Origin: Prevotella sp. KH2C16
GTDB lineage: Bacteria; Bacteroidota; Bacteroidia; Bacteroidales; Bacteroidaceae
Assembly: GCF_900113305.1 (NCBI RefSeq)
Contig: NZ_FOOW01000004.1
Location: 124,001 to 188,000 of the forward strand
DNA length: 64,000 nucleotides
Reading direction: 5' to 3'
Both the position numbers and the translations under genes were made by a program. How positions within the stretch are numbered: the first letter of the stretch is position 1; each line of letters opens with the position of its first letter. Shown here piece by piece: positions 2,828 to 53,008 of this stretch. The notes under the pieces were generated by a model that was not told the origin of the DNA, ran no database searches, and saw nothing but the letters and a program-made list of their open reading frames with translations.

Positions 2828-3047
2828 AATTTTTTATCGCAAGGGGATAAAAAAGTGATTTCCGGGAAAACAAGTATGGGTGAAGCGGAAAGCTGGATGC
2901 GAGTAATTCTGTCGGGATAATTGGTAAAAATTAAATTAGGAAATTAGCTTTTCTGGAGACGGAAATGACCGTTTTTGATGCGAAAGACTGGGCTGGTGAG
3001 GCTGAAAAGTTGCGGTTTTTGCCCCGATTTCCTTGTTTTTTAGCTTC

Positions 3048-3150
3048 AAAAGGCCTCTTTTTGTCTTGCAGGAGGCGGCTTTTTGGCGACTAAAAGGCGG
3101 CTAAAAGCAGAGTAAAAGGCCGCTAAAAGCAATGTCGGAAGCCGCCTTTT
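3048..3150. repeat. 22-bp-period palindrome array A (5 units)
   Basis: Units begin at 3048, 3070, 3092, 3114 and 3136, always 22 bp apart. The best units read AAAAGGCGGCTAAAA and AAAAGGCCGCTAAAA; the last is the mirror-like CGGAAGCCGCCTTTT. The family consensus is close to the palindrome AAAAGGCSGCCTTTT with about 7 nt between units. AAAA tracts at 3092, 3103, 3114 and 3124 are spaced 10-11 bp, so they lie on one face of the helix. The array sits in the 750-bp divergent gap between mraZ and glsA; the rest of that gap shows only the two promoters. A possible degenerate sixth unit follows at 3158. Confidence 0.85.
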
Positions 3151-3471
3151 ACAACTCAACTGCCTGTTTTCAGGCCTTTCGAGTGGTTTTTGCGTTTCTG
3201 CCCGTTTTTGCTTCCGGCGGGCTTGTTGCGGCCAAAAAGCCCATGGATTTGCCGTGTTGTAAAATAAATTGGCCTGAATATACCGATGAGCTATACTGTT
3301 GAAAACTTGGGTGGGGAAGATCTTCGTCCGCAACTTCTGTGCCGGATTTTTTAGTGTAGGAATGCAATTCGGGAAATGCCGAAATATAAGGCTGTCGCCG
3401 CAAAATGAAACTAAATGTGAGGCAAAGGGATTTTTTTAGGATTATTTGCATTGTTTTTCGGTAACTTTTGT

Positions 3472-11704: not shown

Positions 11705-11767
11705 GTAAAATCTGAGAATTTACTTACTGAAATCTCAGATTTTACCTACTAAAGTCTTAGATTTTAC
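11705..11767. repeat. 22-bp-period palindrome array B (3 units)
   Basis: 19-nt units at 11705, 11727 and 11749: GTAAAATCTGAGAATTTAC, CTGAAATCTCAGATTTTAC and CTAAAGTCTTAGATTTTAC, each near-palindromic around the middle, with 3-nt spacers, exactly 22 bp apart. A hybrid unit (CCAAAAGGCCGTTAATTAC) lies one more period upstream at 11683. The array is in the gap between convergent genes. Confidence 0.88.
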
Positions 11768-18497: not shown

Positions 18498-19409
18498 ATG
18501 AAGTTCAAGGAATTCTTCTATTTCTCAAAGTCAGACCGGGCGGCATTGCTTGTGTTGCTGGCCGTGGGCATTCTCGCCTTTCTTTTAATCTATGGCATCG
18601 GACGGCTGAACGACAAGACCGACCCGGTATCAACCGACAGCCAGAACCTTCGAAAAATGCCGGTTTCATCGAGAAAACCCACCCGAAGCCGGGAGGCGCA
18701 GTATTATTATGCCGCTCCGGAGCGGAAAGAGGAACGATTCTCCTTCGACCCGAACACCGCAGACAGCACCCAGCTTCTTCGCTTGGGGCTGCAGCCTTGG
18801 CAGGTGCGTGCCATTTACCATTATCGGGCTAAAGGCGGCATCTTCCGCAAGAAAACTGATTTCGCCCGTCTCTACGGGCTTACGGTGAAGCAATATCGGG
18901 AGTTGGAGCCTTACATCAAGATTTCTTCCGACTATCTTCCTGCGGCGGAAGTCTATGCGGAAAAGAACAAAAAAGTGCCATTTCATCGGGATTCTATCCG
19001 ATTTCACGAGAAGTTCGGTCCTACCGAGCGCATCCTCTTGAACCGGGCCGACACCTCGCAACTGAAGAAAGTGCCGGGCATCGGAAGCTATTTTGCCCGC
19101 CAGGTGGTGAACTACAGGAATCGTCTGGGCGGCTTCTACAGCCTTGACCAGCTTGCCGAAATCGACGATTTCCCGATGGAATCGGTAAAATATATGATCC
19201 TCGACGCCGAAAGCATAAGGAAGATAAACCTCAACAAGCTCACCCTGAACCAGCTGAAGCGACATCCTTACATTAATTTCTATCAGGCTCGGGAAATCTG
19301 CGACTACCGCCGGCTGAAAGGCCCTTTGCGTAGTCTGGACGACTTGCGGCTACTGAAAGACTTTCCGCGGGAGGCCATCGAGAGGCTTCGTCCCTATGCG
19401 GAGTTCTGA
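18498..19409 (+). CDS. Membrane-anchored helix-hairpin-helix protein (ComEA-like)
   Basis: A 303-residue protein with one N-terminal membrane helix (AALLVLLAVGILAFLLIYGIG) and several ComEA-type HhH units: FDPNTADSTQLLRLGLQPWQ, LLNRADTSQLKKVPGIGSYF and INLNKLTLNQLKRHPYINFY. Such proteins bind double-stranded DNA without sequence preference, on the outer face of the inner membrane in competence systems. No other competence genes are nearby, so a role in DNA uptake is a family-based inference. It starts 12 nt after the NSS relic, possibly reading on from the transporter promoter. Confidence 0.85.
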   Translation: MKFKEFFYFSKSDRAALLVLLAVGILAFLLIYGIGRLNDKTDPVSTDSQNLRKMPVSSRKPTRSREAQYYYAAPERKEERFSFDPNTADSTQLLRLGLQPWQVRAIYHYRAKGGIFRKKTDFARLYGLTVKQYRELEPYIKISSDYLPAAEVYAEKNKKVPFHRDSIRFHEKFGPTERILLNRADTSQLKKVPGIGSYFARQVVNYRNRLGGFYSLDQLAEIDDFPMESVKYMILDAESIRKINLNKLTLNQLKRHPYINFYQAREICDYRRLKGPLRSLDDLRLLKDFPREAIERLRPYAEF

Positions 19410-19463
19410 ATTCTGCCGGCTTCTTGCCGCCTGGACAGATGCTGTCAGCGGCTTCCTATGGAA

Positions 19464-19568
19464 TAAAACAGGCTGTTTTGCAGTATAAAATAACCCATTT
19501 TATATTATAAAATAACTTATTTTACAATATAAAATAACTTATTTTAGTGAGTGAAATAACTTATTTTA
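19464..19568. repeat. 22-bp-period palindrome array C (5 units)
   Basis: 17-nt units at 19464, 19486, 19508, 19530 and 19552, exactly 22 bp apart. Units 3 and 4 are the same perfect palindrome, TAAAATAACTTATTTTA; unit 5 differs by one base. Unit 1 reads TAAAACAGGCTGTTTTG: both arms changed (TAA to CAG, TTA to CTG), so the pairing is kept. The array lies in the 366-bp gap between the HhH gene and the sigma factor promoter; nothing else is seen in this gap except the promoter. Confidence 0.92.
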
Positions 19569-19689
19569 CTTTAGTGATGGCTGTAGGAAGTATCAGGATA
19601 GGCCGTGCGGAGCCTGGTGTGTGAGGGTCGCCAGATGCGGAATGTGCTGTGGCAGTTTTTGCAATCCTGTAAAAATTTGATGTCAAAAA

Positions 19690-19775: not shown

Positions 19776-20348
19776 ATGTCCATAGGTGTCTCCGATAAAA
19801 TCATTTTGTCGGCCTTAAGTCAGGGAAACGAGGAGGCCTTCGACATGATCTTCGAGCAGTTGTACCCGAAGATGAAGGACTTTGCGACCCGCCTTTGCGG
19901 CAATGAGTACGATGCGGAAAACATCGTGCAGGATATCTTCATGCAGCTCTGGATTTATCGCGAGGGTCTCAGGAATGTGGAGAATCTCGACGGCTATGTG
20001 TTCATGATGGTGCGAAATGCCGGCCTGAACTTTCTCCGGAAGTCGCTCCGGCGTGAGTCGGTGCGGTTAGACGGCACCTTGCAGATTGCCGAAGAAGAGT
20101 CTGCGGGCGACACCTTATACTATAAAGAACTGGAGGCCATCATCGAGCAGGAAATCGGCAAGATGCCGCCTCAACGGCGCATGGTTTTCTCCATGAGCCG
20201 TATCGAGGGACTCTCGAATGCCGAGATTGCCGAGAAACTCGGCATCAGCAAGCGCACGGTGGAATCGCATATTTCTCTTGCACTACGCGATCTCAGACAA
20301 GTAATGCCTCTTATGTCGCTGCTGGCATTACTTGCCATGGTGAAATGA
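19776..20348 (+). CDS. ECF-type RNA polymerase sigma factor
   Basis: A 190-residue sigma-70 family protein with region 2 (FDMIFEQLYPKMKDFATRLC, YDAENIVQDIFMQLW) and region 4 (PPQRRMVFSMSRIEGLSNAE, EIAEKLGISKRTVESHISLA). It belongs to the Bacteroides-type ECF group that partners with FecR-like anti-sigma factors and SusC receptors carrying an STN domain. Followed by just such a FecR gene and the susC gene, it should switch on the N-glycan locus when the receptor senses substrate. Confidence 0.95.
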   Translation: MSIGVSDKIILSALSQGNEEAFDMIFEQLYPKMKDFATRLCGNEYDAENIVQDIFMQLWIYREGLRNVENLDGYVFMMVRNAGLNFLRKSLRRESVRLDGTLQIAEEESAGDTLYYKELEAIIEQEIGKMPPQRRMVFSMSRIEGLSNAEIAEKLGISKRTVESHISLALRDLRQVMPLMSLLALLAMVK

Positions 20349-20464
20349 AATGCCCCGTGGGCTGTCGCCGAAACCAGGAAACTGTTTTTTAACTTATATT
20401 AACCCGACATGCTTGCGTGTGGTTGCCCGCAATCATGTCTTTATAGTGTATTCTTAAACAGTTT

Positions 20465-21469
20465 ATGAACCTAACGGACCTTAGCCATATTATCAGGGAT
20501 TACTTTGACGGAATAACGCCAAAGAGCTATTCCGAGCGCATCAAGCGCTGGCTTCTGAGCGAGTCGCAGGAGGATGAGAAAAACGCGGTAATGAAGCAAA
20601 TATGGGATGGCCTGGAGCCCGAAGAGGTTGATACGGCAGGAGCCTTGCGCACATTCCGCGAGAATCGTCATGAGTATGAATGGAACCTGCACCGCAGAAG
20701 CCGCCTTGCCAAGACCCTTCGCTGGGCTGCCGTGTTGGCGCTTCCGATAATAGGAGCCGCGGCGGCATGGGTGTATTCCGGGAAGTATTATGAGCGCAAG
20801 CAGCTGGTGGAATTCTATGTTCCGGAGGGAAAGGTGGACTCGCTGATGCTTTCCGACGGCACGAAGGTAATCGTGAACTCAAAAACTACGATCCTGTATC
20901 CTTCGGCATTCAATATCCACGGCGGTCAGCGTGATGTGTTCCTGCTGGGCGAGGCTCACTTCAAGGTAGCTAAAGACGCATCCCGTCCCTTTGTAGTGCA
21001 CTCGGGAAAGTTGAATATCCAGGTGCTCGGGACGCAGTTCAATGTCAAGGCTTATTCCGACGAAGACCTTATCACGACGACTCTTGAGGAGGGACGCGTG
21101 AAGTTGTATGACGACAACTACAGCGAGACGATGAAGCCTAATGAGCAGATAGTCTACAGCCGTAATGACGGCCGTATGGCAAAGCATGTCGTAAAGGTCA
21201 GGGATTTCAACTGCTGGATGCTCGGAACCATGGTATTCAGGGAGCAGACCTTAGGCAGTATACTCAACGAACTGGGTAGCCGCTATGAAGTGGACTTCGT
21301 GGTTGACTCCTCCATAGACCTTTCCCAGAAGTATACGATGAACTTTACCAATAAGGAAACGATCAACGATGTGCTTCGCGTGCTTAGTCAATTGGCAAAT
21401 AACTTACATTATTATAAACAAGGTCAAACAATAAAACTCTTCAAGAGTAGAAAGGAGGACTCCCTATAA
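20465..21469 (+). CDS. FecR-type anti-sigma factor
   Basis: A 334-residue inner-membrane regulator: cytoplasmic sigma-binding N-terminal part (about 1-80), one membrane helix (LRWAAVLALPIIGAAAAWVY), a FecR domain (VPEGKVDSLMLSDGTKVIVN, FLLGEAHFKVAKD, VLGTQFNVKAYSDE) and the C-terminal domain that contacts the STN domain of the receptor. It holds the sigma factor until the SusC-like protein signals. Spacing from the sigma gene is 116 nt with no clear second promoter. Confidence 0.94.
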   Translation: MNLTDLSHIIRDYFDGITPKSYSERIKRWLLSESQEDEKNAVMKQIWDGLEPEEVDTAGALRTFRENRHEYEWNLHRRSRLAKTLRWAAVLALPIIGAAAAWVYSGKYYERKQLVEFYVPEGKVDSLMLSDGTKVIVNSKTTILYPSAFNIHGGQRDVFLLGEAHFKVAKDASRPFVVHSGKLNIQVLGTQFNVKAYSDEDLITTTLEEGRVKLYDDNYSETMKPNEQIVYSRNDGRMAKHVVKVRDFNCWMLGTMVFREQTLGSILNELGSRYEVDFVVDSSIDLSQKYTMNFTNKETINDVLRVLSQLANNLHYYKQGQTIKLFKSRKEDSL

Positions 21470-21544
21470 AAACACTACTGGATTCTTAACTACCAAACCT
21501 GAACTATTAGTGAACTCAACTAACTTTATTCTCATACAATTGTT

Positions 21545-24500
21545 ATGAAAACAAACATTATTAATTACCTTAAAGCAATAAAAGTGAAAAGAATTACCCT
21601 TCTTTTAGTTTTATTTCTTTCGATGTCTGTCAGCATGATGGGACAGAACCAGGTGGTGAAACTGGATAAGACAACTACCACCGTGCGCCAGCTTATCAGC
21701 GCCATCGAGAAACAAACTAACATGTCCGTAGACTACGGGCAGAACACCCTGAACCTTGCGAAGCAGGTGAAGGTAAACTCAAAATCAGAGAGGCTCGGCA
21801 CGCTGCTCGGCATGATGCTGAATGGTACGGGCTTGGAGTATTCCATCTCCGGGCGTCATATCATTATTACCAAGGCTGAGTCTCAGCAGACCCGTAAGCC
21901 GGGGCAGAAACAGATGGTGAAAGGTCGTGTGCTCGACGCTAATGGCGACCCTTTGATCGGTGTAACCGTAAAGGTGAAAGGTACGAACAACGCAACGGTA
22001 ACCGACATTGATGGTAACTATAGCATTAATACAGAACGCGGAGATATACTTGAGTACTCCTATGTCGGGTTTACAACCAAGGAAGCTCGTGCGAATGGCA
22101 CGCAAATCGACCAGACTCTGCTGGAGGATTCCAAGGAATTGAATGAGGTGGTCGTTACCGCCCTGGGCATCAAGCGTGAGCAGAAAGCATTGTCTTACAA
22201 TGTACAGCAGGTTGCGGGTGATGATCTCTCAATAAACAAAGATGCCAACTTCATCAATTCTCTGAATGGTAAAGTGGCCGGTGTGAACATCAATGCTTCA
22301 TCCTCTGGTGCCGGCGGCGCCTCCAAGGTGGTGATGCGTGGAACCCGTTCCATCATGCAGTCAAGCAATGTATTGTATGTCATCGACGGTATTCCAATGT
22401 TGAATACAGGCGGCGAAGGTTCTACGGAGTTCGGATCTTCCGGCACATCAGAGGGTATTGCCGACCTTAATTCCGAGGACATTGAGTCGATGTCGGTCTT
22501 GACAGGTGCTGCCGCGGCCGCTCTCTATGGCGAGAAGGCATCTAATGGTGCCATTGTAATCACCACCAAGAAAGGTAGTGCAGGCCATACGCAGTTCACC
22601 GTGTCCCAGAATACGGAGTTCTCCACGGCTTTCCGCACGCCTAAGTTCCAGAATAAGTATGGCACGGGCTCAAGCCTTCGCGACAGCGGCACCGAGTCTT
22701 ACAGCTGGGGAAGGCTGCTCAACGAGAGCAACTATATGGGATATGACCCGACAGACGACTACTTTAAGACAGGCATCATGACGACGGAAGCGTTCACCAT
22801 GTCTACGGGTACGGAGAAAAACCAGACCTTTTTCTCGGCAAGTGCCTTGAATTCAACTGGAATTGTTCCCAACAACAAATATAACCGTTATAACTTCACG
22901 GTGCGTAACACCACAAGTCTGCTGAACGATCGCATGACCCTTGATGTCGGCGCAAGCTATATCATACAGAACGACCGCAATATGACTAACCAGGGTGTAT
23001 ACAACAATCCGTTGGTAACAGCCTATCTTTATCCTCGTGGCAATGACTATCAGGACATGGCTATGTTCGAGCACTACGACACCACACGCAAGATCTATAC
23101 CCAGAACTGGAACGGGCTGATTAGCGAGCTGGTAGGGCAGAACCCTTATTGGATTAACTATCGTACGCCTCGTACGAACAGGAAGTATCGCTATATGCTG
23201 AACGCGGGTCTGTCGTATAAGTTCACCGACTGGCTGAGCCTCTCTGCCCGCATCCGTATCGACAACTCCACCAACACCTATGAGGAGAAGTTCTATGCCA
23301 CCACCAATATGACTCTTACGGGCAGTAGCAATGGTATGTATAACATTCAGAAGTCTGACAACAAGCAGACCTATGGCGATGTGATGGCCAATATCAATAA
23401 GCGCTTCTTCGAGGACAAGCTTTCGCTGGTTGCCAATGTCGGTGTGTCTCTCTCTGATATGAAGCAGAATCTGCTGGGCAATAGAGGTCCGTTGGACGAA
23501 AACCTTATTCCGAATGTATTCACCGTGGCACAGATAAACCGTGCCCGCCTCACGCCGGAGCAGTCGGGATTCCACGATCAGACCAAGTCTCTCTTTGCCA
23601 GTGTCGAACTGGGTTGGGCAAGTCAGTTCTATCTCACATTGACGGGTCGCAACGACTGGCCTTCCATGTTGGCGGGTCCCCATTCCAACAAATCCTCGTT
23701 CTTCTACCCTTCTGTCGGTGGTTCCTGGATTATTTCCGAAACTTTTGCCCTTCCGAAGGAGATTAATTATCTGAAGGCTCGTGCTTCGTTTGCATCAGTA
23801 GGTCTCTCATTCCCCCGTTGGTATGCGAATCCAAAGTACACTTGGGATGAGAACAAGAAGCAGTGGAGCAGCCAGACGACTTATCCTATGTATAACCTCA
23901 AACCGGAGCGCACGGACTCTTGGGAGTTTGGACTTCAGGCTCGTTTGTTCAAGCACTTCAACATCGACTTCACCTATTACACTACCAAGACCTATAACCA
24001 GACCTTCGATCCGAAGATCTCGGCGTCTTCCGGCTATAGCAAGATGTATATCCAGACAGGTGATGTAAGTAACCGCGGTGTAGAACTGGCAGTAGGCTAC
24101 AGCAATACATGGGGCGACTTCTCATGGTCTACCAACTATACGCTCAGCATGAACCGCAACAAGATCAACGAACTTGTTACGGGCTATGTACATCCAGAGA
24201 CAGGTACTTTGATTACGGTGGACAAGCTCGATGAGGGTGGTCTGGGTTCAGCCCATTTCATCTTGAAGAAAGGCGGCACCCTGGGCGACCTCTATTCGCT
24301 GGCTGATATCCAGCGCGACAGCAACGGCAAGGTGTATGTAGATGCCGACGGCAAGGTCTACAAGAATTCTAATGTGGAAGATGTCAAGCTGGGTTCTATC
24401 TTCCCGAAGAGCAACATGGCATGGCGCAACGACTTCTCTTGGAAAGGATTGAATCTTGGCTTCATGATTTCTGCTCGTTTCGGCGGTATCGTCTATTCTG

Positions 24501-24901
24501 CTACCCAGGCCAATCTTGACTATTACGGCGTGTCGGAAGCTACGGCCGATGCCCGCGACAAGGGATGGGTTTCCGTGAACGGGGAGCGAAACTATGTGAA
24601 CCCGGAAACATGGTATACGACAATTGGCGGCAGCGACGGAATTCCTCAGTATTATACATATAGTGCTACCAATGTGCGTTTACAGGAAGCAAGCTTGGGC
24701 TACACCTTCAAGAAAAACACCTTCTTCGGACTTGGAGATCTCACGGTGTCTCTCGTTGGCCGTAACCTGCTGTTGTTCTACTGTAAGGCTCCTTTCGATC
24801 CAGAGTCCACAGCTACTACCGGTAACTACTATCAGGGCATAGACAAGTTCATGACGCCAAGCACCAGAAACCTTGGTTTCAATATCAAACTCAAATTCTA
24901 A
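21545..24901 (+). CDS. SusC/RagA-type TonB-dependent glycan transporter with STN domain
   Basis: An 1118-residue outer-membrane importer. Order of parts: signal peptide (about 1-33), STN signalling domain (about 38-110, VRQLISAIEKQTNMSVDYGQ), carboxypeptidase-regulatory-like domain (about 125-205, VKGRVLDANGDPLIGVTVKV), plug with the SusC signature VVVTALGIKREQKALSYNVQ, then the 22-strand barrel ending GFNIKLKF. The STN domain links it to the FecR/sigma pair upstream. With the SusD-like lipoprotein it forms the lid-and-barrel pair that imports oligosaccharides. Genes downstream point to high-mannose N-glycan pieces as cargo. Confidence 0.96.
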   Translation: MKTNIINYLKAIKVKRITLLLVLFLSMSVSMMGQNQVVKLDKTTTTVRQLISAIEKQTNMSVDYGQNTLNLAKQVKVNSKSERLGTLLGMMLNGTGLEYSISGRHIIITKAESQQTRKPGQKQMVKGRVLDANGDPLIGVTVKVKGTNNATVTDIDGNYSINTERGDILEYSYVGFTTKEARANGTQIDQTLLEDSKELNEVVVTALGIKREQKALSYNVQQVAGDDLSINKDANFINSLNGKVAGVNINASSSGAGGASKVVMRGTRSIMQSSNVLYVIDGIPMLNTGGEGSTEFGSSGTSEGIADLNSEDIESMSVLTGAAAAALYGEKASNGAIVITTKKGSAGHTQFTVSQNTEFSTAFRTPKFQNKYGTGSSLRDSGTESYSWGRLLNESNYMGYDPTDDYFKTGIMTTEAFTMSTGTEKNQTFFSASALNSTGIVPNNKYNRYNFTVRNTTSLLNDRMTLDVGASYIIQNDRNMTNQGVYNNPLVTAYLYPRGNDYQDMAMFEHYDTTRKIYTQNWNGLISELVGQNPYWINYRTPRTNRKYRYMLNAGLSYKFTDWLSLSARIRIDNSTNTYEEKFYATTNMTLTGSSNGMYNIQKSDNKQTYGDVMANINKRFFEDKLSLVANVGVSLSDMKQNLLGNRGPLDENLIPNVFTVAQINRARLTPEQSGFHDQTKSLFASVELGWASQFYLTLTGRNDWPSMLAGPHSNKSSFFYPSVGGSWIISETFALPKEINYLKARASFASVGLSFPRWYANPKYTWDENKKQWSSQTTYPMYNLKPERTDSWEFGLQARLFKHFNIDFTYYTTKTYNQTFDPKISASSGYSKMYIQTGDVSNRGVELAVGYSNTWGDFSWSTNYTLSMNRNKINELVTGYVHPETGTLITVDKLDEGGLGSAHFILKKGGTLGDLYSLADIQRDSNGKVYVDADGKVYKNSNVEDVKLGSIFPKSNMAWRNDFSWKGLNLGFMISARFGGIVYSATQANLDYYGVSEATADARDKGWVSVNGERNYVNPETWYTTIGGSDGIPQYYTYSATNVRLQEASLGYTFKKNTFFGLGDLTVSLVGRNLLLFYCKAPFDPESTATTGNYYQGIDKFMTPSTRNLGFNIKLKF

Positions 24902-24912
24902 TGTGTGAAGCA

Positions 24913-26487
24913 ATGAAACAGATTAAAAATATTTTATTGGCAAGCCTGTCAGCAGTACTTTTGTCTACTTCTACAGGTTGTACTAACAGCTATGAGGAAT
25001 ATAACCAGGATCCTTATGCTGTTACCAAGGAAGAGATGCAGCGTGATGCTTATAGCTTGAGTTCCGCTCTTATCAATCTTGAAAGTTGGGTGATACCTAC
25101 TGATGTAAATGCAAATCAGTTTACGGAGTGTCTTTGCGGCGGTTCCTACGGAGGCTATATCTCTGATTCCAACCCAGGATTCTCCGGCAAGAACTTTGCC
25201 CAGTATAGTCCGGAAAACGGTTGGGATCGTGTTCTCTTCGAAGATTTCGTTCCTAAGCTCTTCATCTATAGCAATGAAGTGAACAATGTAACAGAGGATA
25301 TTGTTCCTCGTTCCGTCGCTCAGATTATAAAGGTTGCTGGTATCCATCGTGTAACTGATGCCTATGGCCCTATTCCTTATTCCAAGGTAGGTGCCGACGG
25401 CAAGATTACGGCTCCTTATGATTCACAGGAAGCAGTGTATGACTTGATGTTCGCACAGCTTGATAGCGCGATTACAAACCTGACAGCCAATCGCACCAAC
25501 GACTTCAGCCCCAAGGCCGACCATGTATATGGAGGCAAGGTGGAGAAGTGGATAAAGTTTGCCAATTCGCTGAAGCTCCGCCTGGCCATCCATATTGCCA
25601 AGGCAGCTCCTGCCAAGGCCAAGCAGAAGGCTGAAGAGGCCGTAAACCACGAGGTGGGCGTCATGACCGGCAACGAAGACAATGCGGAACTGACAGTATC
25701 CAGCACCAATCCTTTTTATGTTGTCATGCATGAGTATAATGGAGTAGAAAATAATCATGGAGACTCTCGTGTCGGGGCTGATATCATAAGCTATATGAAT
25801 GGTTACAAAGATCCTCGCCGCTCAGAAATGTTCACAGTATCCACTTTTGCAAATGCTACCAATGGTTTCCATGGTTTGCGTTCTGGTATTAATATTCCCG
25901 GCCAGGAAACTTCCAACATGTATTCCAACTACAAGGTGGCTACCGATTCCAAGCTTCTTTGGATGAATGCAGCCGAAGTGGCCTTCCTCCGTGCAGAGGG
26001 TGCTTTACGGGGCTGGAGCATGGGTAGTACCCCCAAGGAACTTTATGAGCAGGGCATTCGCCTCTCGTTCGGACAATGGGGTGTAAATGGCGTAGAGAAC
26101 TATTTGGCAGACCACACAAGCACTCCGGCTGTCTATACCGACCCGACTGGATCTAATTCCTATAATGGGACAGTTTCATCCATTACCATTGCATGGGACG
26201 ACAATGCCTCCACCGACAAGAACTTGGAGCGTATCATCACCCAGAAGTGGCTGGCCAACTTCCCATTGGGCCAAGAGGCATGGACAGAATATCGCCGTAC
26301 GGGCTATCCCAGGTTGATGCCGGTCGTGGTGAACAATAGCGGTGGTATTGTCAGCACGGAGCGTGGTGCCCGTCGCCTGTATTATCCACAGGAGGAGCGC
26401 ATCAATAACTATGATAATTATCTTCAGGGTGTGAGCCTGCTCGGCGGTTCAGACAATATGGCAACTGATGTGTGGCTGGCAAAGTAG
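24913..26487 (+). CDS. SusD/RagB-like glycan-binding lipoprotein
   Basis: A 524-residue surface lipoprotein. Signal peptide with lipobox LSTSTGC-TNSYEEY; then the SusD-type helical fold with its TPR-like pairs and the typical IIKVAGIHRVTDAYGPIPYS, KWIKFANSLKLRLAIH and LLWMNAAEVAFLRAEGAL. It caps the SusC barrel and binds the incoming glycan. The ATG at 24913 gives a good signal peptide; an in-frame Met four codons earlier overlaps the susC stop. It belongs to the SusD-like-2 branch, like the SusD of the B. thetaiotaomicron N-glycan locus. Confidence 0.94.
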   Translation: MKQIKNILLASLSAVLLSTSTGCTNSYEEYNQDPYAVTKEEMQRDAYSLSSALINLESWVIPTDVNANQFTECLCGGSYGGYISDSNPGFSGKNFAQYSPENGWDRVLFEDFVPKLFIYSNEVNNVTEDIVPRSVAQIIKVAGIHRVTDAYGPIPYSKVGADGKITAPYDSQEAVYDLMFAQLDSAITNLTANRTNDFSPKADHVYGGKVEKWIKFANSLKLRLAIHIAKAAPAKAKQKAEEAVNHEVGVMTGNEDNAELTVSSTNPFYVVMHEYNGVENNHGDSRVGADIISYMNGYKDPRRSEMFTVSTFANATNGFHGLRSGINIPGQETSNMYSNYKVATDSKLLWMNAAEVAFLRAEGALRGWSMGSTPKELYEQGIRLSFGQWGVNGVENYLADHTSTPAVYTDPTGSNSYNGTVSSITIAWDDNASTDKNLERIITQKWLANFPLGQEAWTEYRRTGYPRLMPVVVNNSGGIVSTERGARRLYYPQEERINNYDNYLQGVSLLGGSDNMATDVWLAK

Positions 26488-26520
26488 AGATTATGGATTT
26501 AAGATTAAAGACTATATAAG

Positions 26521-27564
26521 ATGAAACATATAATTAAGAATATAGCATATTCAATGGCCTGCCTTGCTGTTGCTTTCTTCATGGCAAGTTGTGATACGGA
26601 TATTGAATCTGTTGAGATCAATGAGCCGGGCATCAATACTCAGAATGCCGAGCTCTATGCCTCTTATCTGACCAGTCTGAAGGCCTATAAGGCCGGCGCG
26701 CACAAGGCGGTGTTCGGTTGGTTCGACAACAGCGTAAGGAATCCGGCCTCGCAAGGACAGAGCATAGTTGCCGTTCCTGACAGTCTGGACTTTCTTGTGC
26801 TGGGCAGCCCGATGAACCTGAATGACCGGGAGATGCAAGAACTCGCCCTGCTTAAAGAGCAGAAAGGTACTAAGGCTCTCTGTGAAATCAGTTATACCGC
26901 TATCAAGAATGCCTATGATGCAGAGAAGCAGGCATTCGAGGAAAACAAGGAAAACGCTGGGATTGCTTTTCCAAAGAACTTCCAGACATACCTTGTTGAT
27001 ACGGTTGCTGACCGCCTTTCCCTCTGTGAGCGGTATGGTTACGACGGTGTGGTGATGGGCTTTACCGCTAAGGTCAAGATTTATATGACTGAGGAAGAGA
27101 AGGCTGAAGCCCTGGCACTTGAGAACGATATTCTTGGAATTGCCAAGGACTGGAAGGAGCGTCATGCTGACAAGATGCTCGTGCTCTCCGGTAAGCCACA
27201 GAATGTAGAGGACAAGAGCGTATTCGACCTCGCAAGCTATATCATCATCCCATGTGAGGAAGCGGCCAATCAGGGTGGAGTGGTCTACAACTTTAACAAG
27301 GCTGCCGTAGACGGCGTACCTACTGAAAAGTTCGTCCCGCTTGTCTCCCTCTATTCTCTCGATAGCTCTGACACCAAGACGGGTTTCTGGGGCGACCAGT
27401 ATGCCGCTATAGGCGCAGCCCGATTCTGTGCTGCTGACCATAATTCGTTTGATGTGGCAGGTTTGGCTCTTAATAACATACAGAATGATTACTATCATGC
27501 CAACTTCGTCTATCCGGTAGTGCGTCAGGCCATCTCGATCGTTAATCCAACTGTTAAAAACTAA
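26521..27564 (+). CDS. Catalytically inactive GH18-like surface glycan-binding lipoprotein
   Basis: A 347-residue lipoprotein (lipobox VAFFMASC-DTD) with a GH18-type TIM-barrel pattern: VFGWFDNS, LDFLVLGSPM, and RYGYDGVVMGFT, which is the position of the DGxxDxE active site. Here the sequence is D175-G-V-V-M-G-F-T182: the acid/base Glu and the two key Asp residues downstream are gone. It therefore probably binds rather than cuts the glycan, like the inactive GH18 surface proteins of Bacteroides N-glycan loci. Direct neighbours are SusD and the DUF1735-LamG protein. Confidence 0.82.
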   Translation: MKHIIKNIAYSMACLAVAFFMASCDTDIESVEINEPGINTQNAELYASYLTSLKAYKAGAHKAVFGWFDNSVRNPASQGQSIVAVPDSLDFLVLGSPMNLNDREMQELALLKEQKGTKALCEISYTAIKNAYDAEKQAFEENKENAGIAFPKNFQTYLVDTVADRLSLCERYGYDGVVMGFTAKVKIYMTEEEKAEALALENDILGIAKDWKERHADKMLVLSGKPQNVEDKSVFDLASYIIIPCEEAANQGGVVYNFNKAAVDGVPTEKFVPLVSLYSLDSSDTKTGFWGDQYAAIGAARFCAADHNSFDVAGLALNNIQNDYYHANFVYPVVRQAISIVNPTVKN

Positions 27565-27570
27565 ACTGAA

Positions 27571-28716
27571 ATGAAGAAGATATTTAAATATTTGCCTCTT
27601 TTGGCTGCTGCATTCCTGATGACGGCTTGCCAAAGTGATAAGGAAGAGGATTTCGGTAACAAAGCGTTTATCGATGCCCCCTCCATGTCTTCCGAGACAA
27701 TTGTAAAGGGCGGAACAGATGATATCGTTAAAACACTTACGATTGCGACTTCTCGCCCTGCAGAGAAGGACATCAAGGCACAAGCCGTGGTTGACAAGTC
27801 TCTCGTAGAAACCTATAATAAGGCTTACTATGCTAATGCAATCCTGCTCCCGGAGGAGTATTATGAGATTACTGAGTCGAACATGGCAATCGACGCAGGC
27901 AGCGTGAAGAGTACAGAAGCATCTATCACTTTCAAGGGTGTCGGTGCGCTCGATCGTAGTCTTGTGTATGTCCTTCCTGTAAAGGTTCAGACATCAGACA
28001 TAGAACTGCTTTCTTCCGCGAAGAATTACTATTATGTATTTAGGGCTGGTGCCCTCATCAATGTCGTTGCGGATATTCAGGATAATTATCTCGAGATCTT
28101 CCCGTGGAAGAACACAGGCAGGGTAAGTGGTATGCGACAGATTACGATGGAGGCTCTTATCTATCCCCGTGAATTCGGCCAGCTGATTTCTACGGTAATG
28201 GGTATCGAGGGCGCCTTCCTGATGCGTATCGGCGATGCTGGTGTCCCCGACAACCAGATTCAGATAGCTACATCCAGTGGTAACTTTACCGATGCCAAGC
28301 TGCAGTTGCAGACAAATAAGTGGCAGCATGTGGCACTCACTTACGACAGGGACAACGGTGAGATGAAGGTGTACATCGACGGCCATTTGATGGCAGAGGG
28401 TACATCCCGCGCTTCCATCAATATCATCGGTAATGGAACCGACCGTAACTTCCTCGTGGGCAAGTCTTATGAGGACGGCCGCGACTTGAATGGCTGTATT
28501 TCGGAGGCTCGTGTATGGGATGTAGTCCGTACGGCTGATGAGATTGCCAATAGCATCTATACCGTCGATCCTACAAGTCCAGGGCTTATTGCTTACTGGA
28601 AGTTCGATGATTTGTCTACCTATACTGTGAAGGACTACTCTGGGAATGGCAATGATCTTACTGCTAAGCGTGCCCAGCTCACTTGGAAGAATGTTTCATT
28701 GCCGGCAGCAAATTAA
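27571..28716 (+). CDS. DUF1735 and LamG domain lipoprotein
   Basis: A 381-residue lipoprotein (lipobox AAFLMTAC-QSDKE). The N-terminal part (about 25-160) is a DUF1735/BT3987-N type beta-sandwich (TIATSRPAEKDIKAQAVVDK, LLPEEYYEITESNMAIDAGS). The C-terminal part (about 185-380) is a LamG/concanavalin-like lectin fold (LQTNKWQHVALTYDRDNGEM, KVYIDGHLMAEGTS, LNGCISEARVWDVVRT, LIAYWKFDD). It is likely a second surface glycan-binding protein of the locus. It starts 6 nt after the preceding stop. Confidence 0.85.
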   Translation: MKKIFKYLPLLAAAFLMTACQSDKEEDFGNKAFIDAPSMSSETIVKGGTDDIVKTLTIATSRPAEKDIKAQAVVDKSLVETYNKAYYANAILLPEEYYEITESNMAIDAGSVKSTEASITFKGVGALDRSLVYVLPVKVQTSDIELLSSAKNYYYVFRAGALINVVADIQDNYLEIFPWKNTGRVSGMRQITMEALIYPREFGQLISTVMGIEGAFLMRIGDAGVPDNQIQIATSSGNFTDAKLQLQTNKWQHVALTYDRDNGEMKVYIDGHLMAEGTSRASINIIGNGTDRNFLVGKSYEDGRDLNGCISEARVWDVVRTADEIANSIYTVDPTSPGLIAYWKFDDLSTYTVKDYSGNGNDLTAKRAQLTWKNVSLPAAN

Positions 28717-28750
28717 TTTTTGAATGCACAAAAAGAAAATAAAAGAAACT

Positions 28751-30097
28751 ATGAACTTAAATAATATTAAGACATTGGCGTTTGCCCTGCTGGCATCCGG
28801 CTTTATGGCCTCTTGCTCAGAGTCTATTGATGTTGCGGGAGTGAGCGAAGGCCAATATCAGAAGCCAGCCAACAGGCTTGCCTTCCTTACGGATAAATAT
28901 GGTCTTAGTAACCAAGACTCGTTGATATTCAATGAGGAAGGGTCTACAGATTTCTATGTGAATGTTACCGATGCATCTGCAAATGCACAGACCTATACCA
29001 TCGTCTACGATGCTACGGCACTGAATAACTATAACATGGCCCATGGCACAAGTTTCGAGGCTCTCCCGGAGGCTCTCGTAACCATTGAAGGCACGGCTAC
29101 CGTAGCTGCCGGAGCCCAGCAGAGTGATGCTGTGAAGGTTAGCTATAAAAGTGCTGACAACCTCGAGAAGAACGGCGTCTATGCGATTCCCTTGAAGGTT
29201 ACGGGTGCCGATGCACAGACCTCTCAAGACAAGGGCGAGTTCGTGCTCTTCGTACGCGACATTACCAAGATGCCCAATTGCCACAAGGACAACGGCCTGC
29301 AGGTGATTTCCTGTATGGAGGTAAACGATGACAATCCGTTGTACAACCTCTGCTTCACCCTCGAGAACAGCGGCAAGTACTTCTTCGACCAGGTAATCCT
29401 CTTCTCGGGTAACATCAACTATAACTCCGAGACCCAGGAAGTCTATAATTACAACAACGAGAATGTTTCTCATCTGTTGGAATACAAGGAGAAGTATCTC
29501 GAGCCCCTGCAGCAGAAAGGCATGAAGGTTATCCTTGGTATCCTGGGTAACCATGACCGTTCGGCCGTGACCAACCTGAACGACGAGGCTTGCAAGCACT
29601 TTGCTGCCGATCTGAAGGCTGTCTGCGAGGCTTACGATCTCGATGGAATTTTCTTCGATGATGAGTATTCTTCGCCGGGCAACTATCCGGGTTTCGTGTC
29701 TTACAACAACTTCGCCCGGTTGGCCTATGAGTGCAAGATGGCGATGCCGGACAAGCTCATGGAAGCTTATGTCTATAGCGGAACAAGTAGTTGTGCCCAG
29801 GTAAATGGTATACAGCCTATCGACTATGCTGTCCATGACTACGGCGGCTCTTACGATGTGAGTTCCAACTATCCAGGTCTTGACAAGAAGGGGATGATTC
29901 TCAACTCCATGGAGTTTGCTCGTGGGCGTTACTCAAACAAGAGTTCCTTCGAGAAAATCAAGAACAACGGCTACGGTGGCACCATGATTTTCTCGCTTGG
30001 ACCGTCGAAGACCCGCATGACTTACATGAACTATGTTGCTCAGGCTTTCTATGGCGAGAATGTGATTCAGACCGGAACTTATGCGAAAGATTGGTAA
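28751..30097 (+). CDS. GH18 endo-beta-N-acetylglucosaminidase lipoprotein
   Basis: A 448-residue surface enzyme: lipobox ASGFMASC-SES, an N-terminal DUF1735-type domain (about 30-155), then a GH18 barrel. The catalytic motif is complete: YDLDGIFFDDEY, with D298, D303 and acid/base E305. It resembles EndoBT-3987 and other EndoF/EndoH-type enzymes that cut between the two GlcNAc residues of N-glycans and free high-mannose oligosaccharides for import. This gene identifies the substrate class of the locus. The ATG at 28751 is chosen because it precedes the signal peptide directly. Confidence 0.9.
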   Translation: MNLNNIKTLAFALLASGFMASCSESIDVAGVSEGQYQKPANRLAFLTDKYGLSNQDSLIFNEEGSTDFYVNVTDASANAQTYTIVYDATALNNYNMAHGTSFEALPEALVTIEGTATVAAGAQQSDAVKVSYKSADNLEKNGVYAIPLKVTGADAQTSQDKGEFVLFVRDITKMPNCHKDNGLQVISCMEVNDDNPLYNLCFTLENSGKYFFDQVILFSGNINYNSETQEVYNYNNENVSHLLEYKEKYLEPLQQKGMKVILGILGNHDRSAVTNLNDEACKHFAADLKAVCEAYDLDGIFFDDEYSSPGNYPGFVSYNNFARLAYECKMAMPDKLMEAYVYSGTSSCAQVNGIQPIDYAVHDYGGSYDVSSNYPGLDKKGMILNSMEFARGRYSNKSSFEKIKNNGYGGTMIFSLGPSKTRMTYMNYVAQAFYGENVIQTGTYAKDW

Positions 30098-30119
30098 ACT
30101 GATTGAAAAAAGACGAGAA

Positions 30120-31088
30120 ATGAAAGCAAAATATTTATTTTCAGCAATGATGTCGATCGCTCTTACATTCGCTTTCACCGCATGTAGCGATGACGACAAT
30201 AACGAGGTGATTCCCGCCCCCAATCCGGTAGAGAAGAGTGAATTGGCCTTTGATGTAGACACGCTCGAGGTCGGTGTGCACGAGACAGCAACCTTCACCA
30301 TCACCAGCGGTGCCGGCGACTATAAGATCATCAACGAGAATCCGGCCATTGCCTCCGGTACCGTGGAGGGCAATGTGGTTACCGTAACTTCCGAGGCCAA
30401 GGGCATTACGGGGCTGGTGGTCTCTGATGCCAAGGGTGGTTACAAGCGCGTTTTAATCAAGTCTATGTATATGAGGCTGGTTACGGATAAGGAAGAGGTT
30501 GCCGTCGGCATGAAGCTCGGCCACTCTGACGGTGTGGCGTCTTTCGATGTAACGGAGGGCAATGGCTCCTATACGGCGATGTCGGCTGATGAGAGCATCG
30601 CCAAGATCAAGTCTATCGACGACAAGACCATCACGGTGCAGGGCGTTGCAGAAGGCTCCACCACCATCACCATTACCGATATGATGGGTCTCCAGAAGAC
30701 CGTTAAGGTAACCGTTGAGACAACTACCATCCCTTACACCGACGAGGAGAAGGCTAAAATCATGGAGGGAACCGTCAATACGGCTGTCTTTGATGGTAAC
30801 ACCTCTTACTCTTGGGGTACTTGGAAGGCGAATGAGACTGCAAGTCCGAAGATTGTCTGGGACTACTATGGCTACTACAGTCTCAAGGTAGACTGGCAGG
30901 GAGACTTCACCGTTGGCAAAAAGACTGGCGGTAAGGTTTACTACAAGTTCTCCTGGGGCGGACAGGAAACCGTGCTTGATGTAGATGTAGAAGTGCTTAA
31001 GAACGACGGTTCCCGCATCTGGGGCATCATGTCGACCATCAAGGATGGCAACTACCTTGCCTACGGATACTTCTCGGTAGGTCTGTAA
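30120..31088 (+). CDS. Lipoprotein with Ig-like (Big2/BACON-type) repeats
   Basis: A 322-residue lipoprotein (lipobox LTFAFTAC-SDDDNNE). Two tandem bacterial Ig-like repeats: about 35-115 (LEVGVHETATFTITSGAGDY) and about 120-205 (FDVTEGNGSYTAMSADESIA, TVQGVAEGSTTITITDMMG), then a unique C-terminal beta domain rich in Trp and Tyr (YSWGTWKANETASPKIVWDY). Last gene of the N-glycan locus; probably a surface spacer or carbohydrate-binding protein. No family-level function is known to me. Confidence 0.8.
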   Translation: MKAKYLFSAMMSIALTFAFTACSDDDNNEVIPAPNPVEKSELAFDVDTLEVGVHETATFTITSGAGDYKIINENPAIASGTVEGNVVTVTSEAKGITGLVVSDAKGGYKRVLIKSMYMRLVTDKEEVAVGMKLGHSDGVASFDVTEGNGSYTAMSADESIAKIKSIDDKTITVQGVAEGSTTITITDMMGLQKTVKVTVETTTIPYTDEEKAKIMEGTVNTAVFDGNTSYSWGTWKANETASPKIVWDYYGYYSLKVDWQGDFTVGKKTGGKVYYKFSWGGQETVLDVDVEVLKNDGSRIWGIMSTIKDGNYLAYGYFSVGL

Positions 31089-31144
31089 TCCCTCATGAAA
31101 GCATATCCTGAAGGCGATTGCTTTTAGGTTTGTTTGTTAGTATC

Positions 31145-31175
31145 AGGGGGCGGTCTCGTTGAAAGGCTGCCCCCT
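31145..31175 (+). terminator. Possible terminator of the N-glycan locus
   Basis: AGGGGGC ... GCCCCCT separated by 17 nt, followed by only a short T-rich stretch. Weak. Confidence 0.35.
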
Positions 31176-31273
31176 TCCTCGTGTTCGTCTGCCGATGGGA
31201 AATGGGCGGATGAGGTCTTTGCGGGGGCTGTTGGCGGGGCTGTCTGCCGCCGCCGGCAATGTAGTCTGCTGCC

Positions 31274-31376
31274 CATAATGGCATTACTCGCAGCTTGTAA
31301 GGGTATTACACGCCGTGTGTAATCCTGTTACACGCTGCTTGTAATGATGTTACAAGCCGTTTGTAATTTCCGTATA
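31274..31376. repeat. 22-bp-period palindrome array D (5 units)
   Basis: Units of the form TGTAA-n5-TTACA at 31274 (degenerate: CATAA/TTACT), 31296, 31318, 31340 and 31362 (right arm decayed), always 22 bp apart. The strongest is GCTTGTAATGATGTTACAAG, with 7-bp perfect arms GCTTGTAA/TTACAAGC. The 5-nt centres differ freely (GGGTA, TCCTG, TGATG) while the arms are kept. It lies in the 459-bp gap between convergent genes; apart from the two terminators, nothing else is seen there. Confidence 0.9.
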
Positions 31377-31486
31377 TATGCCCCTCGTGAATCAGGGAGA
31401 CAGCTGCCAGGAGGGTTGCTTGTGAGCGGGGCTGGTCTTGGCGTCTGCTTTTTCTTGTCCGGAAAGCATGAAGCATGGATATAAAA

Positions 31487-31516
31487 AATCCTCCTCGCCT
31501 TGCGGGGAGGAGGATT
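31487..31516 (-). terminator. Terminator of the TonB/lipoprotein operon
   Basis: Minus strand stem AATCCTCCTCCCC ... GGCGAGGAGGATT with a GCAA-type tetraloop, followed by TTTTTT: a strong intrinsic terminator. Confidence 0.8.
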
Positions 31517-31547
31517 GTGAGTGTAAGCCTGACGGCATTTCCGGCTT

Positions 31548-32564
31548 TTACAGCCAGTAGCCTTCTTCGGAATGTCCCTTTTTCTTGTAAACAAAGTTCA
31601 CATATTCCTCCAAGGCCTCCTGCCATTTAAGATTGAAGGCATCCATCAGATTATAGATGAGATTATTGCTCGCGTCGTCGAGTTTGCCCTCAGAGATGGT
31701 GCTTAAGTCGGTGTCTTCGTCTATTGTCGGATCCATATTGCTGGTATCGTCGCGGTCCATATAGATTACGAAAGGTATCGTGTAGTCGATGTCGAAGGTG
31801 CCGTTCTGATACAGGCGGTTGTCGGGTGCATAGTAAGGACTGGTCTTGTCTCCGTCAAGGAACTTCGACTTGTAGCCGTGGTAGAGCTTGATGCGCATGT
31901 CAAACTCCTTGCGGGTCTTGAGGAATCGCAGCACGCCCTTGAATCCCGTGGGACTTTTCTTGCCGATGAGCTTGGCTCCTTCCTTGGTGGTCTTATTCCA
32001 TGGGTCGGTGTCGCAGTATAGGTAGTCGAAGAGTTTCTGGGTCTGCTGGTCGTCTACTTCTTCCTTACCGCGTGGCAGGGTCTTGACATTCTCCGCCATG
32101 AAGAAGTGCTGGTGAATCTTGCGCTGGTCTTCCGTCTGGAACTGGTCGGTAATTTCCTTGCCTGCCGCATTGTAGTATTTGATGAAGAGCAGGTAGATGG
32201 GAGCGGGCCTACCGTCGTACCAGGGTGCTTTCTGAACATAGAATTTCTTTTGTCCCTCGTTGCCGAACTCCCATTTCTTGGTGGCCGGGTTCAGTTGCCA
32301 GATAATCTTCTGCACGCTCTTGATGTGCTTGGCCTCGGTGTCGGGGTTCTGATGAGGGCCTCCGTGTTCCTGTATATCACCCCATTGTGCATGCAGGTGG
32401 CAGTCCACGAGGATAAGCTCCACCTTGGCAGGATCTTCGTGCAGCTTGTTCTTGGTTTCATCTACCGGCTTCTGGGGATCGTCGCTACATGCTGTAAAAC
32501 CGAATGTGAGCAATGCTCCGCAAAGAAGCATGAGTGCTTTGGTCTTGATTGTCTTTGTTTTCAT
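31548..32564 (-). CDS. Histidine-containing lipoprotein of a TonB receptor locus
   Basis: A 338-residue lipoprotein (lipobox LLTFGFTAC-SDDPQ). Near residue 45 it carries LILVDCHLHAQWGDIQEHGG, a cluster of His, Cys and Asp that could bind metal; a second His pair is in RKIHQHFFMAENVK. I do not recognise the family with certainty. It follows the TonB receptor gene on the same strand, so it may hand the ligand to the receptor at the surface, as HmuY does for heme, or receive it inside. The upstream extension of the frame (to 32714) has no signal peptide and overlaps the receptor, so the ATG at 32564 is used. Confidence 0.75.
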   Translation of the reverse strand: MKTKTIKTKALMLLCGALLTFGFTACSDDPQKPVDETKNKLHEDPAKVELILVDCHLHAQWGDIQEHGGPHQNPDTEAKHIKSVQKIIWQLNPATKKWEFGNEGQKKFYVQKAPWYDGRPAPIYLLFIKYYNAAGKEITDQFQTEDQRKIHQHFFMAENVKTLPRGKEEVDDQQTQKLFDYLYCDTDPWNKTTKEGAKLIGKKSPTGFKGVLRFLKTRKEFDMRIKLYHGYKSKFLDGDKTSPYYAPDNRLYQNGTFDIDYTIPFVIYMDRDDTSNMDPTIDEDTDLSTISEGKLDDASNNLIYNLMDAFNLKWQEALEEYVNFVYKKKGHSEEGYWL

Positions 32565-32661
32565 CTTTGATAATTTTAAAGGGTTGTTTTGTTCTCTTTT
32601 TGTTTTGATTACTGTTGCTTTTGAAATGTTTTGAGTTGATTGTCGTTTCTTGCAAGGGGCG

Positions 32662-34794: not shown

Positions 34795-34979
34795 GTCTCA
34801 ATGAATAATAATGGTATGGCAGACTGCGGACGGTTTCCGTCTTGGTCGGTCATAATATAATAAGATGTGTGATTGTGCTGTCGTCGCTATCTTTTACGGC
34901 AGTCTACGGCATAATTTCCTTTCCGGAAAGTAAGCGTGGACATGCCGGAAACATAGAGTCGGCAGATAGGGATGCGGGC

Positions 34980-35300
34980 TTAGCCCATTGTTGGCGGTGC
35001 ATGAGCGTTTATCGAGCCAACATGTCGATAGACGATTTGCGGTGAGAATGTCAGGAAATGCACCAGCGTAACGGTTATCACGGGGATGAAAGCCGCTACC
35101 TTTATGGCTGCCGACTCGTACATGACGAAGTTGCAGATGTAGCAGTTTTCTCCGATGGAAGCGTGGTGGCTGGTGTTAGCCTGTTCTGTTTCTACTATAG
35201 AATATGTGTGGAAATGAAAATCCTTGGCGACAAGAACCATGGTGAATGTCAGTAGTAACATCCATGCGTAGAATATCCTTATGGTCTTTCTTGTCTTCAC
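34980..35300 (-). CDS. Small membrane protein with Cys-x2-Cys motif upstream of the TonB receptor
   Basis: A 106-residue protein with a first membrane helix (IFYAWMLLLTFTMVLVA), a short periplasmic part with HFHTY and ENCYICNF (C-x2-C), and a second helix (AFIPVITVTLVHFLTF). Small proteins of this shape are often found before TonB receptors in Bacteroidetes. The Cys and His residues fit metal sensing or binding. It precedes the receptor by 185 nt on the same strand. Function unknown. Confidence 0.68.
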   Translation of the reverse strand: MKTRKTIRIFYAWMLLLTFTMVLVAKDFHFHTYSIVETEQANTSHHASIGENCYICNFVMYESAAIKVAAFIPVITVTLVHFLTFSPQIVYRHVGSINAHAPPTMG

Positions 35301-35657: not shown

Positions 35658-35731
35658 TCGGGATGACCAGACTCGAACTGGCGACCCCTTCGTCCCGAAC
35701 GAAGTACGCTACCAACTGCGCTACATCCCGA
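35658..35731 (-). tRNA. tRNA-Pro(CGG)
   Basis: 74 nt with acceptor stem TCGGGAT/ATCCCGA, D arm AGCGCAGTTGGTAGCG, anticodon stem CTTCG/CGAAG around loop TTCGGGA (anticodon CGG, 35695-35697 on the plus strand), T arm CCAG-TTCGAGT-CTGG. No CCA is encoded. A -7 box TATCTTTG (35748-35741) lies 10 nt upstream. Confidence 0.95.
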
Positions 35732-35838: not shown

Positions 35839-35911
35839 GGTACCTTAGCTCAGGTGGTAGAGCAATGGACTGAAAATCCATGTGTCCTTGGTTCAACTCC
35901 AAGAGGTACCA
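35839..35911 (+). tRNA. tRNA-Phe(GAA)
   Basis: 73 nt: acceptor GGTACCT/AGGTACC plus discriminator A, D arm TAGCTCAGGTGGTAGAGC, anticodon stem ATGGA/TCCAT around loop CTGAAAA (GAA at 35872-35874), T arm CTTGG-TTCAACT-CCAAG. No CCA is encoded. The next gene starts 15 nt downstream with no promoter or terminator between. Confidence 0.96.
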
Positions 35912-35926
35912 CACATATTAGCCTTT

Positions 35927-45640: not shown

Positions 45641-45706
45641 GACAATCTCGGCGATTTTGTGCGACGAAATCGCCGAATTTGTCCTACGATTTCGGCGAGA
45701 TTGTCA
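45641..45706. repeat. 22-bp-period palindrome array G (3 units)
   Basis: Units at 45641, 45663 and 45685, exactly 22 bp apart: GACAATCTCGGCGATTTTGT, GACGAAATCGCCGAATTTGT and TACGATTTCGGCGAGATTGT. Besides each unit being near-palindromic, the whole array mirrors itself: its first 10 bases (GACAATCTCG) are the complement of its last (CGAGATTGTC). The third unit runs into the stop codon of fucP (45704-45706). Same sequence family as array H. Confidence 0.9.
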
Positions 45707-52942: not shown

Positions 52943-53008
52943 GACAAAATCGGCGAAATCGTGCGACAAAATCGCCGATTTCGTCAGTCAATCTCGCCGA
53001 TTTTTTTA
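52943..53008. repeat. 22-bp-period palindrome array H (3 units)
   Basis: Units at 52943, 52965 and 52987, exactly 22 bp apart: GACAAAATCGGCGAAATCGT, GACAAAATCGCCGATTTCGT and GTCAATCTCGCCGATTTTTT. The middle unit is nearly a perfect palindrome (AAATCGCCGATTT core). It shares its sequence family with array G, 7 kb away. It lies in the 140-bp gap between efp and the glycosyltransferase gene and ends in a T-run on the plus strand. Confidence 0.9.

Follow-up and report, generated by a model that had tools for sequence, protein, structure and literature searches.

Three described systems come closest to the repeats treated here. BIME/REP elements, as presented in PMC1525189, consist of intergenic palindromic units arranged in mosaics and frequent in convergent gaps, and binding of gyrase, IHF, and DNA polymerase I is reported there for REPs; end tags of the GTAG/CGTC type are described for REPs in PMC3733652. 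The BOX elements of Streptococcus pneumoniae are intergenic and dispersed, with boxA and boxC as ends and a variable number of tandem boxB modules between them (PMC3049150). Within the Bacteroidales, the BrickBuilt MITE of Porphyromonas gingivalis combines tandem short repeats with dispersal. According to the accessible portion of PMC4596501, in which the word "palindrom" does not occur, it is built from a 23-nt repeat of one consensus and has IS-like terminal inverted repeats. For a strict 22-bp pitch together with exchangeable words, no description was found in searches of open-licence PubMed Central papers.

The stretch analyzed here (the window) covers 64 kb of the 3.22 Mb genome of Prevotella sp. 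KH2C16. On direct reading, its array at 19464-19568 consists of five 17-bp palindromes at an exact pitch of 22 bp, separated by 5-bp spacers which read, in order, CAGTA, TATTA, CAATA, and GTGAG (Table 1). Such a composition of 17-bp palindromes and 5-bp spacers places identical half-sites at every 22 bp and inverted half-sites at every 11 bp. Over the five units, 36 of 40 pairs are matched; since the best of 200 local window shuffles reached 26, the array is not a product of chance. In total the window holds five clear 22-bp lattices, this one included, plus a weaker sixth. Tandem Repeats Finder reported 22-bp arrays at five places of the window, and palindrome triples appeared at period 22 (8 centres) and at its sub-harmonic 33 (4 centres), with none at any other period scanned between 15 and 40.

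Table 1. Units and neighboring lattice slots of the array and the further 22-bp lattices of the window
Feature	Position	Strand	Description
Weaker 22-bp array	3034..3158	.	AAAAGGC..GCNNTTTT type, family F; pairs 6, 5, 2, 2, 4 of 8
Three-unit lattice	11706..11766	.	word TAAAATCT.AGATTTTA, between convergent genes
Left lattice slot	19442..19458	.	CTGTCAGCGGCTTCCTA, centre 19450, 22 bp ahead of unit 1 centre
Unit 1	19464..19480	.	TAAAACAGGCTGTTTTG, pairs 7/8, odd word of the array
Unit 2	19486..19502	.	TAAAATAACCCATTTTA, pairs 6/8, one-sided change
Unit 3	19508..19524	.	TAAAATAACTTATTTTA, pairs 8/8
Unit 4	19530..19546	.	TAAAATAACTTATTTTA, pairs 8/8
Unit 5	19552..19568	.	TGAAATAACTTATTTTA, pairs 7/8, one-sided change
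Right lattice slot	19574..19590	.	GTGATGGCTGTAGGAAG, centre 19582
Four-unit lattice	31284..31366	.	TTACA..TGTAA, family B
Three-unit lattice	45643..45703	.	family D (CAAAATCG type)
Three-unit lattice	52945..53005	.	family D

With moderate confidence, we interpret the array as one copy of BIME/BOX-like mosaic boundary elements, putatively bound at the DNA level by a phased dimeric protein. Several observations stand behind this reading: the pitch is exactly 22 bp with free spacers and conserved arms, each genome has several words, the arrays favor convergent gaps and the 3' ends of genes, at least one family has been dispersed in whole copies, and two species carry lattices in corresponding gaps, for the most part with other words.

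The array is far from singular in its genome. A census covering 841 kb of KH2C16 yielded 65 palindromic arrays (74 with direct arrays included), which were sorted by degenerate half-site motifs into six word families, namely D (CAAAATCG type, 26 arrays), C (GTTTC, 11), B (TTACA, 10), F (AAAAGGC, 7), A (TAAAATAA, 6), and E (TTACC, 5). When the window and 400 kb of contig C15 were scanned for palindromes, period 22 gave 31 arrays, and no non-harmonic period gave more than one. When palindromy was ignored, a lag-22 direct-repeat scan found 58 arrays in 597 kb of KH2C16 (other lags from 15 to 33 at most 4) and 30 arrays in 280 kb of G186, the nearest relative sampled (81% complete; other lags at most 3). 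Palindromic were 53 of these 58 and all 30, respectively. The same pitch was obtained with no array detector involved: same-strand copies of AAAATCG formed 36 pairs at 22 bp and none at other distances from 14 to 30, and the counts at 22 bp versus elsewhere were 32 vs 2 for GTTTCA, 35 vs 4 for CAAAAT, and 14 vs 2 for TTACCA. Same-strand half-site copies were nearly absent at 20, 21, 23, or 24 bp, and inverted copies of 6-mer half-site words lay 11 bp apart. A weak word, AAAAGA in G186, was noisier, with 10 pairs at 22 bp and 5 at 21 bp.

Conservation is distributed unevenly along the repeat. Adjacent units agree in their arms at 0.68-0.90 in KH2C16 and 0.55-0.92 in G186, and at the spacer middle at 0.25 and 0.36, respectively, which places the spacers near saturation at a fixed length. 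As a neutral tandem repeat would be expected to decay in length and not in its letters alone, arrays of fixed length look like the outcome of selection on half-sites and pitch. Inspected by eye, window units of four families (B, C, E, and F; e.g., 31284-31366) tend to have A-R-Y as the inner three half-site letters beside the centre, with examples such as AGC, AAC, and AAT appearing regardless of the outer word.

In respect to genomic place, 94 of the 109 palindromic arrays from KH2C16 and G186 were intergenic and 15 overlapped a called ORF, the gene calls being crude (longest non-overlapping ORFs). The intergenic arrays were found in 36 convergent, 50 co-directional, and 8 divergent gaps. Compared with 280 background gaps of at least 150 bp (62 convergent, 155 co-directional, 63 divergent), this is an enrichment in convergent gaps (36/94 vs 62/280, p 0.003) and a depletion in divergent ones (8/94 vs 63/280, p 0.002); promoters are avoided. 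Within co-directional gaps, the upstream stop was the closer one for 37 of 50 arrays (median 50.5 vs 129 bp, p 0.0002). This 3'-end preference could reflect mere tolerance of insertion at gene ends.

The elements are organized as mosaics. A palindrome of another word with at least 6 of 8 pairs stood exactly one slot past a run of like units in 12 of 146 cases, compared with a total of 11 for 20 other offsets, and B (TTACA) and E (TTACC) words alternate within single arrays. On contig C24 of KH2C16, at about 19014-19120 (joined coordinates), TTACC and TTACA units are seen to alternate with every unit on the 22-bp lattice. Degenerate labels gave 9 of 65 and 8 of 43 mixed arrays, a count in which at least the entry oC15 127515 is doubtful and several entries take caps as the second word. 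These caps are a motif shared between arrays of KH2C16, with an outward consensus resembling NNCNGNAAGCNGCNTTTTG, which occupies the next lattice slot at array ends. Its GC.GC (flank columns 12, 13, 15, and 16) carries 0.51-0.82 bits and is centred 22 bp past the last unit, as derived from 120 flanks of 60 arrays in five families; families A and E contribute few, with 5 and 3 arrays, respectively. In G186, 18 flanks of 9 arrays show the related cap AC.GC..TTTAC. At the array under study, the left slot agrees with the cap motif GCNGCTT, and the right slot is a weak fit. Between the caps, cores mostly comprise 2-5 units (2 to 4 in pattern-matched cores, 5 in the window array). Three units are present in 26 of 29 family-D arrays, and their variants follow a recognizable order in many copies. 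The cores of these 26 copies share a mean identity of 0.76, reaching up to 0.95, against 0.33 in the 50-bp flanks; family D is one dispersed element that has spread as whole copies.

Together with the caps common to several families and with sites that are insertion-tolerant places, such similar D copies in unrelated flanks would also be left by functionless minisatellites or MITE-like non-autonomous elements that owe their 22 bp to common descent and were spread by some transposase. We consider this origin rather unlikely, since it does not fit spacers that are saturated yet fixed in length between arms that are still alike, nor unrelated words in exact phase. It is further weakened by two missing hallmarks. 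Long terminal inverted repeats were not found, the flank-to-flank stem scoring 14.0 vs 13.4 between arrays (sd 3.7) and the short cap motif being all that flanks have in common. A search for the RAYT Y1 transposase (PF01797) gave no match in the KH2C16 genome and was positive in 6 of 14 control genomes, which also rules against a RAYT/REP origin of the Prevotella arrays. For one gap with an array in KH2C16 only, the flanks align too poorly with G186 for a boundary to be visible.

Two features of BIME/REP elements are found in the Prevotella arrays: intergenic palindromes at 3' ends and in convergent gaps, and more than one unit type per element. Unlike BIME/REP elements, they have 17-bp units that keep strictly to a 22-bp lattice, and each genome has several unrelated words, which vary by species; the GTAG/CGTC tags were not noticed as a common feature. 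The likeness to BOX, compared by its description, lies in the modular plan, as distinct ends surround variable tandem modules here as well, with a cap common to five families at the next slot. In difference to the BOX modules, the Prevotella modules are palindromes spaced at 22 bp, their word changes from one element to the next, and the caps share the lattice. Identity with BrickBuilt was rejected based on the period of 22 and palindromic units of other words, as opposed to its published 23-nt consensus.

Extension toward relatives started from the gene beside the window array, which encodes a helix-hairpin-helix protein and is present in 281 of 299 genus genomes sampled; its relatives are titled Prevotella, Hoylesella, Xylanibacter, Segatella, and Hallella, among others. 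A strict palindromic scan of 80 relative loci (1.41 Mb) detected 22 arrays at period 22 in 18 loci and 0-3 at other non-harmonic periods, with words including TTCCCA..TGGGAA, TATATGGGCCATATA, and GGAAC..GTTCC. The same scan of 20 further genus regions gave 6 arrays in 5 regions, one of these being from the nearest relative. Relatives thus keep the 22-bp lattice, and the words differ between elements and species. By direct-repeat detection, 25 of the 90 lag-22 arrays of the genus set were non-palindromic, and other lags gave 5-31 arrays. Other genera of the family, sampled with 397 kb, had 15 direct arrays at lag 22 compared with 11 at lag 21, and the strict palindromic scan at 22 was passed by none; no lag-22 array was seen in the 395 kb that represented other families of the phylum. 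Direct 22-bp arrays without an obvious palindrome were seen in other genera at locus L199 from 14877 onward and at locus L212 at 527 and 16082, for example with TATATATGGCTACCGTGGTGAG repeated. The pitch may therefore be more widespread than the palindromic plan.

Array positions are partly shared between KH2C16 and G186. Among 36 gaps matched between KH2C16 and G186, arrays were present in both species in 6, in one only in 2 and 3, and in neither in 25 (p 0.001); for gaps of at least 100 bp these numbers were 6, 1 and 1, and 19 (p 0.0002). Two of the 6 shared gaps hold F-type words in both species, which leaves 4 with outright different words. The gap of 11706..11766, for instance, also contains a lattice of another word in G186, and in the gap of 45643-45703 CAAAATCG.CGATTTTG in KH2C16 stands against CAAACTGG.CCAGTTTG in G186. 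Distant sharing is rare: across 80 more distant loci, 284 gaps corresponded to gene pairs of the window, and 9 of these gaps hold an array.

The surroundings of the array differ between the two genomes. About 16 kb at 19776-35300 are extra in KH2C16 relative to G186 and encode, among others, an ECF sigma factor, FecR, a SusD-like protein, and a BT1044-type GH18. On one side of the window array is the helix-hairpin-helix gene and on the other this extra stretch, the far end of which adjoins divergent tRNA genes at 35658-35730 (-) and 35839-35911 (+). In G186, a tRNA follows directly after the helix-hairpin-helix gene, and then a gene matching 35882-38119 of the window. A phage or plasmid origin of the repeats was considered and rejected. 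Three viral contigs carry related words, two of them the exact family-D word and one a pair of TTCCCA units; scanned with the array detector, two of the three gave no array, and the remaining one gave a weak repeat that does not match. The window array had no plasmid match at E 0.001.

Within the array, unit 1 had attracted attention in the sequence-only reading, which saw TAA replaced by CAG in the left arm and TTA by CTG in the right arm compared with units 3 and 4, and attributed this either to selection on symmetry or to a mechanism writing both arms. That two different symmetric motifs stand in one array is correct, both words being read at the 22-bp phase. The swap is symmetric in both arms as claimed; pairing is not fully intact, as the outermost T/G pair is broken. 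If two CAG-type half-sites are placed at random among ten, they fall into the same unit in 5 of 45 ways (0.11), so that the matched change alone is weak evidence. The unit 1 word AAAACRGNCYGTTTT occurs 3 times in the KH2C16 genome, and its type is found in 4 of 12 inspected arrays of G186. Writing of both arms is consequently not needed, and a different unit on the same lattice appears to be the simpler account. AAAATAANTTATTTT has 9 occurrences in the KH2C16 genome and 0 in the 81% complete G186.

A compensatory history is the core of another alternative, by which unit 1 arose via paired mutations kept for base pairing in a hairpin of RNA or single-stranded DNA. Unit 1 itself would fit, as would the symmetry of one well-defined word group. 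TTAC[A/C]-N7-[T/G]GTAA has 47 matches in 841 kb, all on a 22-bp lattice, and in 46 of them the arms are matched (34 A/T, 12 C/G), the remaining one being C/T. In the two arrays mixing TTACA and TTACC words, all 7 scored units are arm-matched, and the sole mismatched unit belongs to a third array. Symmetry belongs to the word, which supports the sequence-only reading in part; covariation within units does not accompany it. On arrays detected by lag 22 only, arm agreement in variable columns was 0.589 vs 0.590 shuffled for KH2C16, 0.572 vs 0.549 (sd 0.016) for G186, and 0.554 vs 0.570 for the genus, which leaves the proposed compensatory change without excess over shuffles. A threshold-conditioned test gave z values of -1.10, +0.43, and -1.89 for the same sets. 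An apparent covariation on palindrome-detected arrays of KH2C16 (arm positions 3-8; intra 0.712, inter 0.541, null 0.547) was rejected, because detection and extension select for palindromy and the excess is removed in both the conditioned and the palindromy-blind test. Free drift of one arm, which the sequence-only reading had named as contradicting its view if seen in sister strains, was encountered in sister arrays instead: at the tested letter, one arm is mismatched in 3 of 14 family-A and 26 of 60 family-D units, and one-sided changes are also present in units 2 and 5 of the window array.

Base pairing at the RNA level would additionally predict a wobble bias. Read in transcript direction, mismatched pairs in co-directional gaps showed none (34 G.T, 42 A.C), and over all contexts the numbers were 114 and 107. 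Convergent gaps, where the transcript strand is not assignable, had more G.T (44) than A.C (26), as a hairpin would have it. Predicted RNA folding of three window arrays beat shuffles on both strands (z -3.7 to -5.5). Since any run of inverted repeats folds in this way, strong folds are expected, and the arrays may still have a role as RNA. A chain of RNA hairpins needs no exact pitch, whereas the 22-bp pitch is almost exceptionless, and Rfam at gathering score returned two tRNAs only in the window and no family at the arrays. Altogether, hairpin-driven evolution of the units is improbable. Equally hard to sustain is phased curved DNA, in which A/T runs per 11 bp bend the helix and mark supercoil apices between convergent genes with no word-specific protein: the 11-bp alternation, the convergent preference, and AAA/TTT in the arms of many words would agree with it, but several words lack A-tracts (TTACC..GGTAA, TTCCCA..TGGGAA, TCAGTGA..TCTCTGA) and curvature needs no conserved word within an array.

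For the preferred reading as protein-bound boundary elements, each unit would serve as an operator, read either by one dimeric DNA-binding protein or by one of several paralogues that differ in their half-site words, and adjacent units may be filled cooperatively on one helix face. Such an assembly could form a boundary between transcription units, whether as a roadblock to transcription, as an insulator, or as a topology element. Elements might exchange their cores by recombining in the caps that they share, and a foreign word like that of unit 1 would then come to stand on the lattice with no paired mutation involved. A more far-reaching version, which we offer tentatively as a possibility on the doubtful side, regards this as an element class defined by spacing: pitch, palindromic plan, caps, and often place persist, the 17-bp words are exchangeable and would be read by fast-diverging paralogous homodimers, and cores would be swapped in place via the caps, giving rise to a two-word array.

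As a general caution, symmetric variants inside arrays need not mean compensatory mutation. If our reading is true, dense intergenic elements extend throughout a large bacterial lineage of the gut, mouth, and rumen, and their fixed pitch combined with changing words would represent a natural experiment on DNA-binding specificity. It would in turn also inform how bacteria separate adjacent transcription units.
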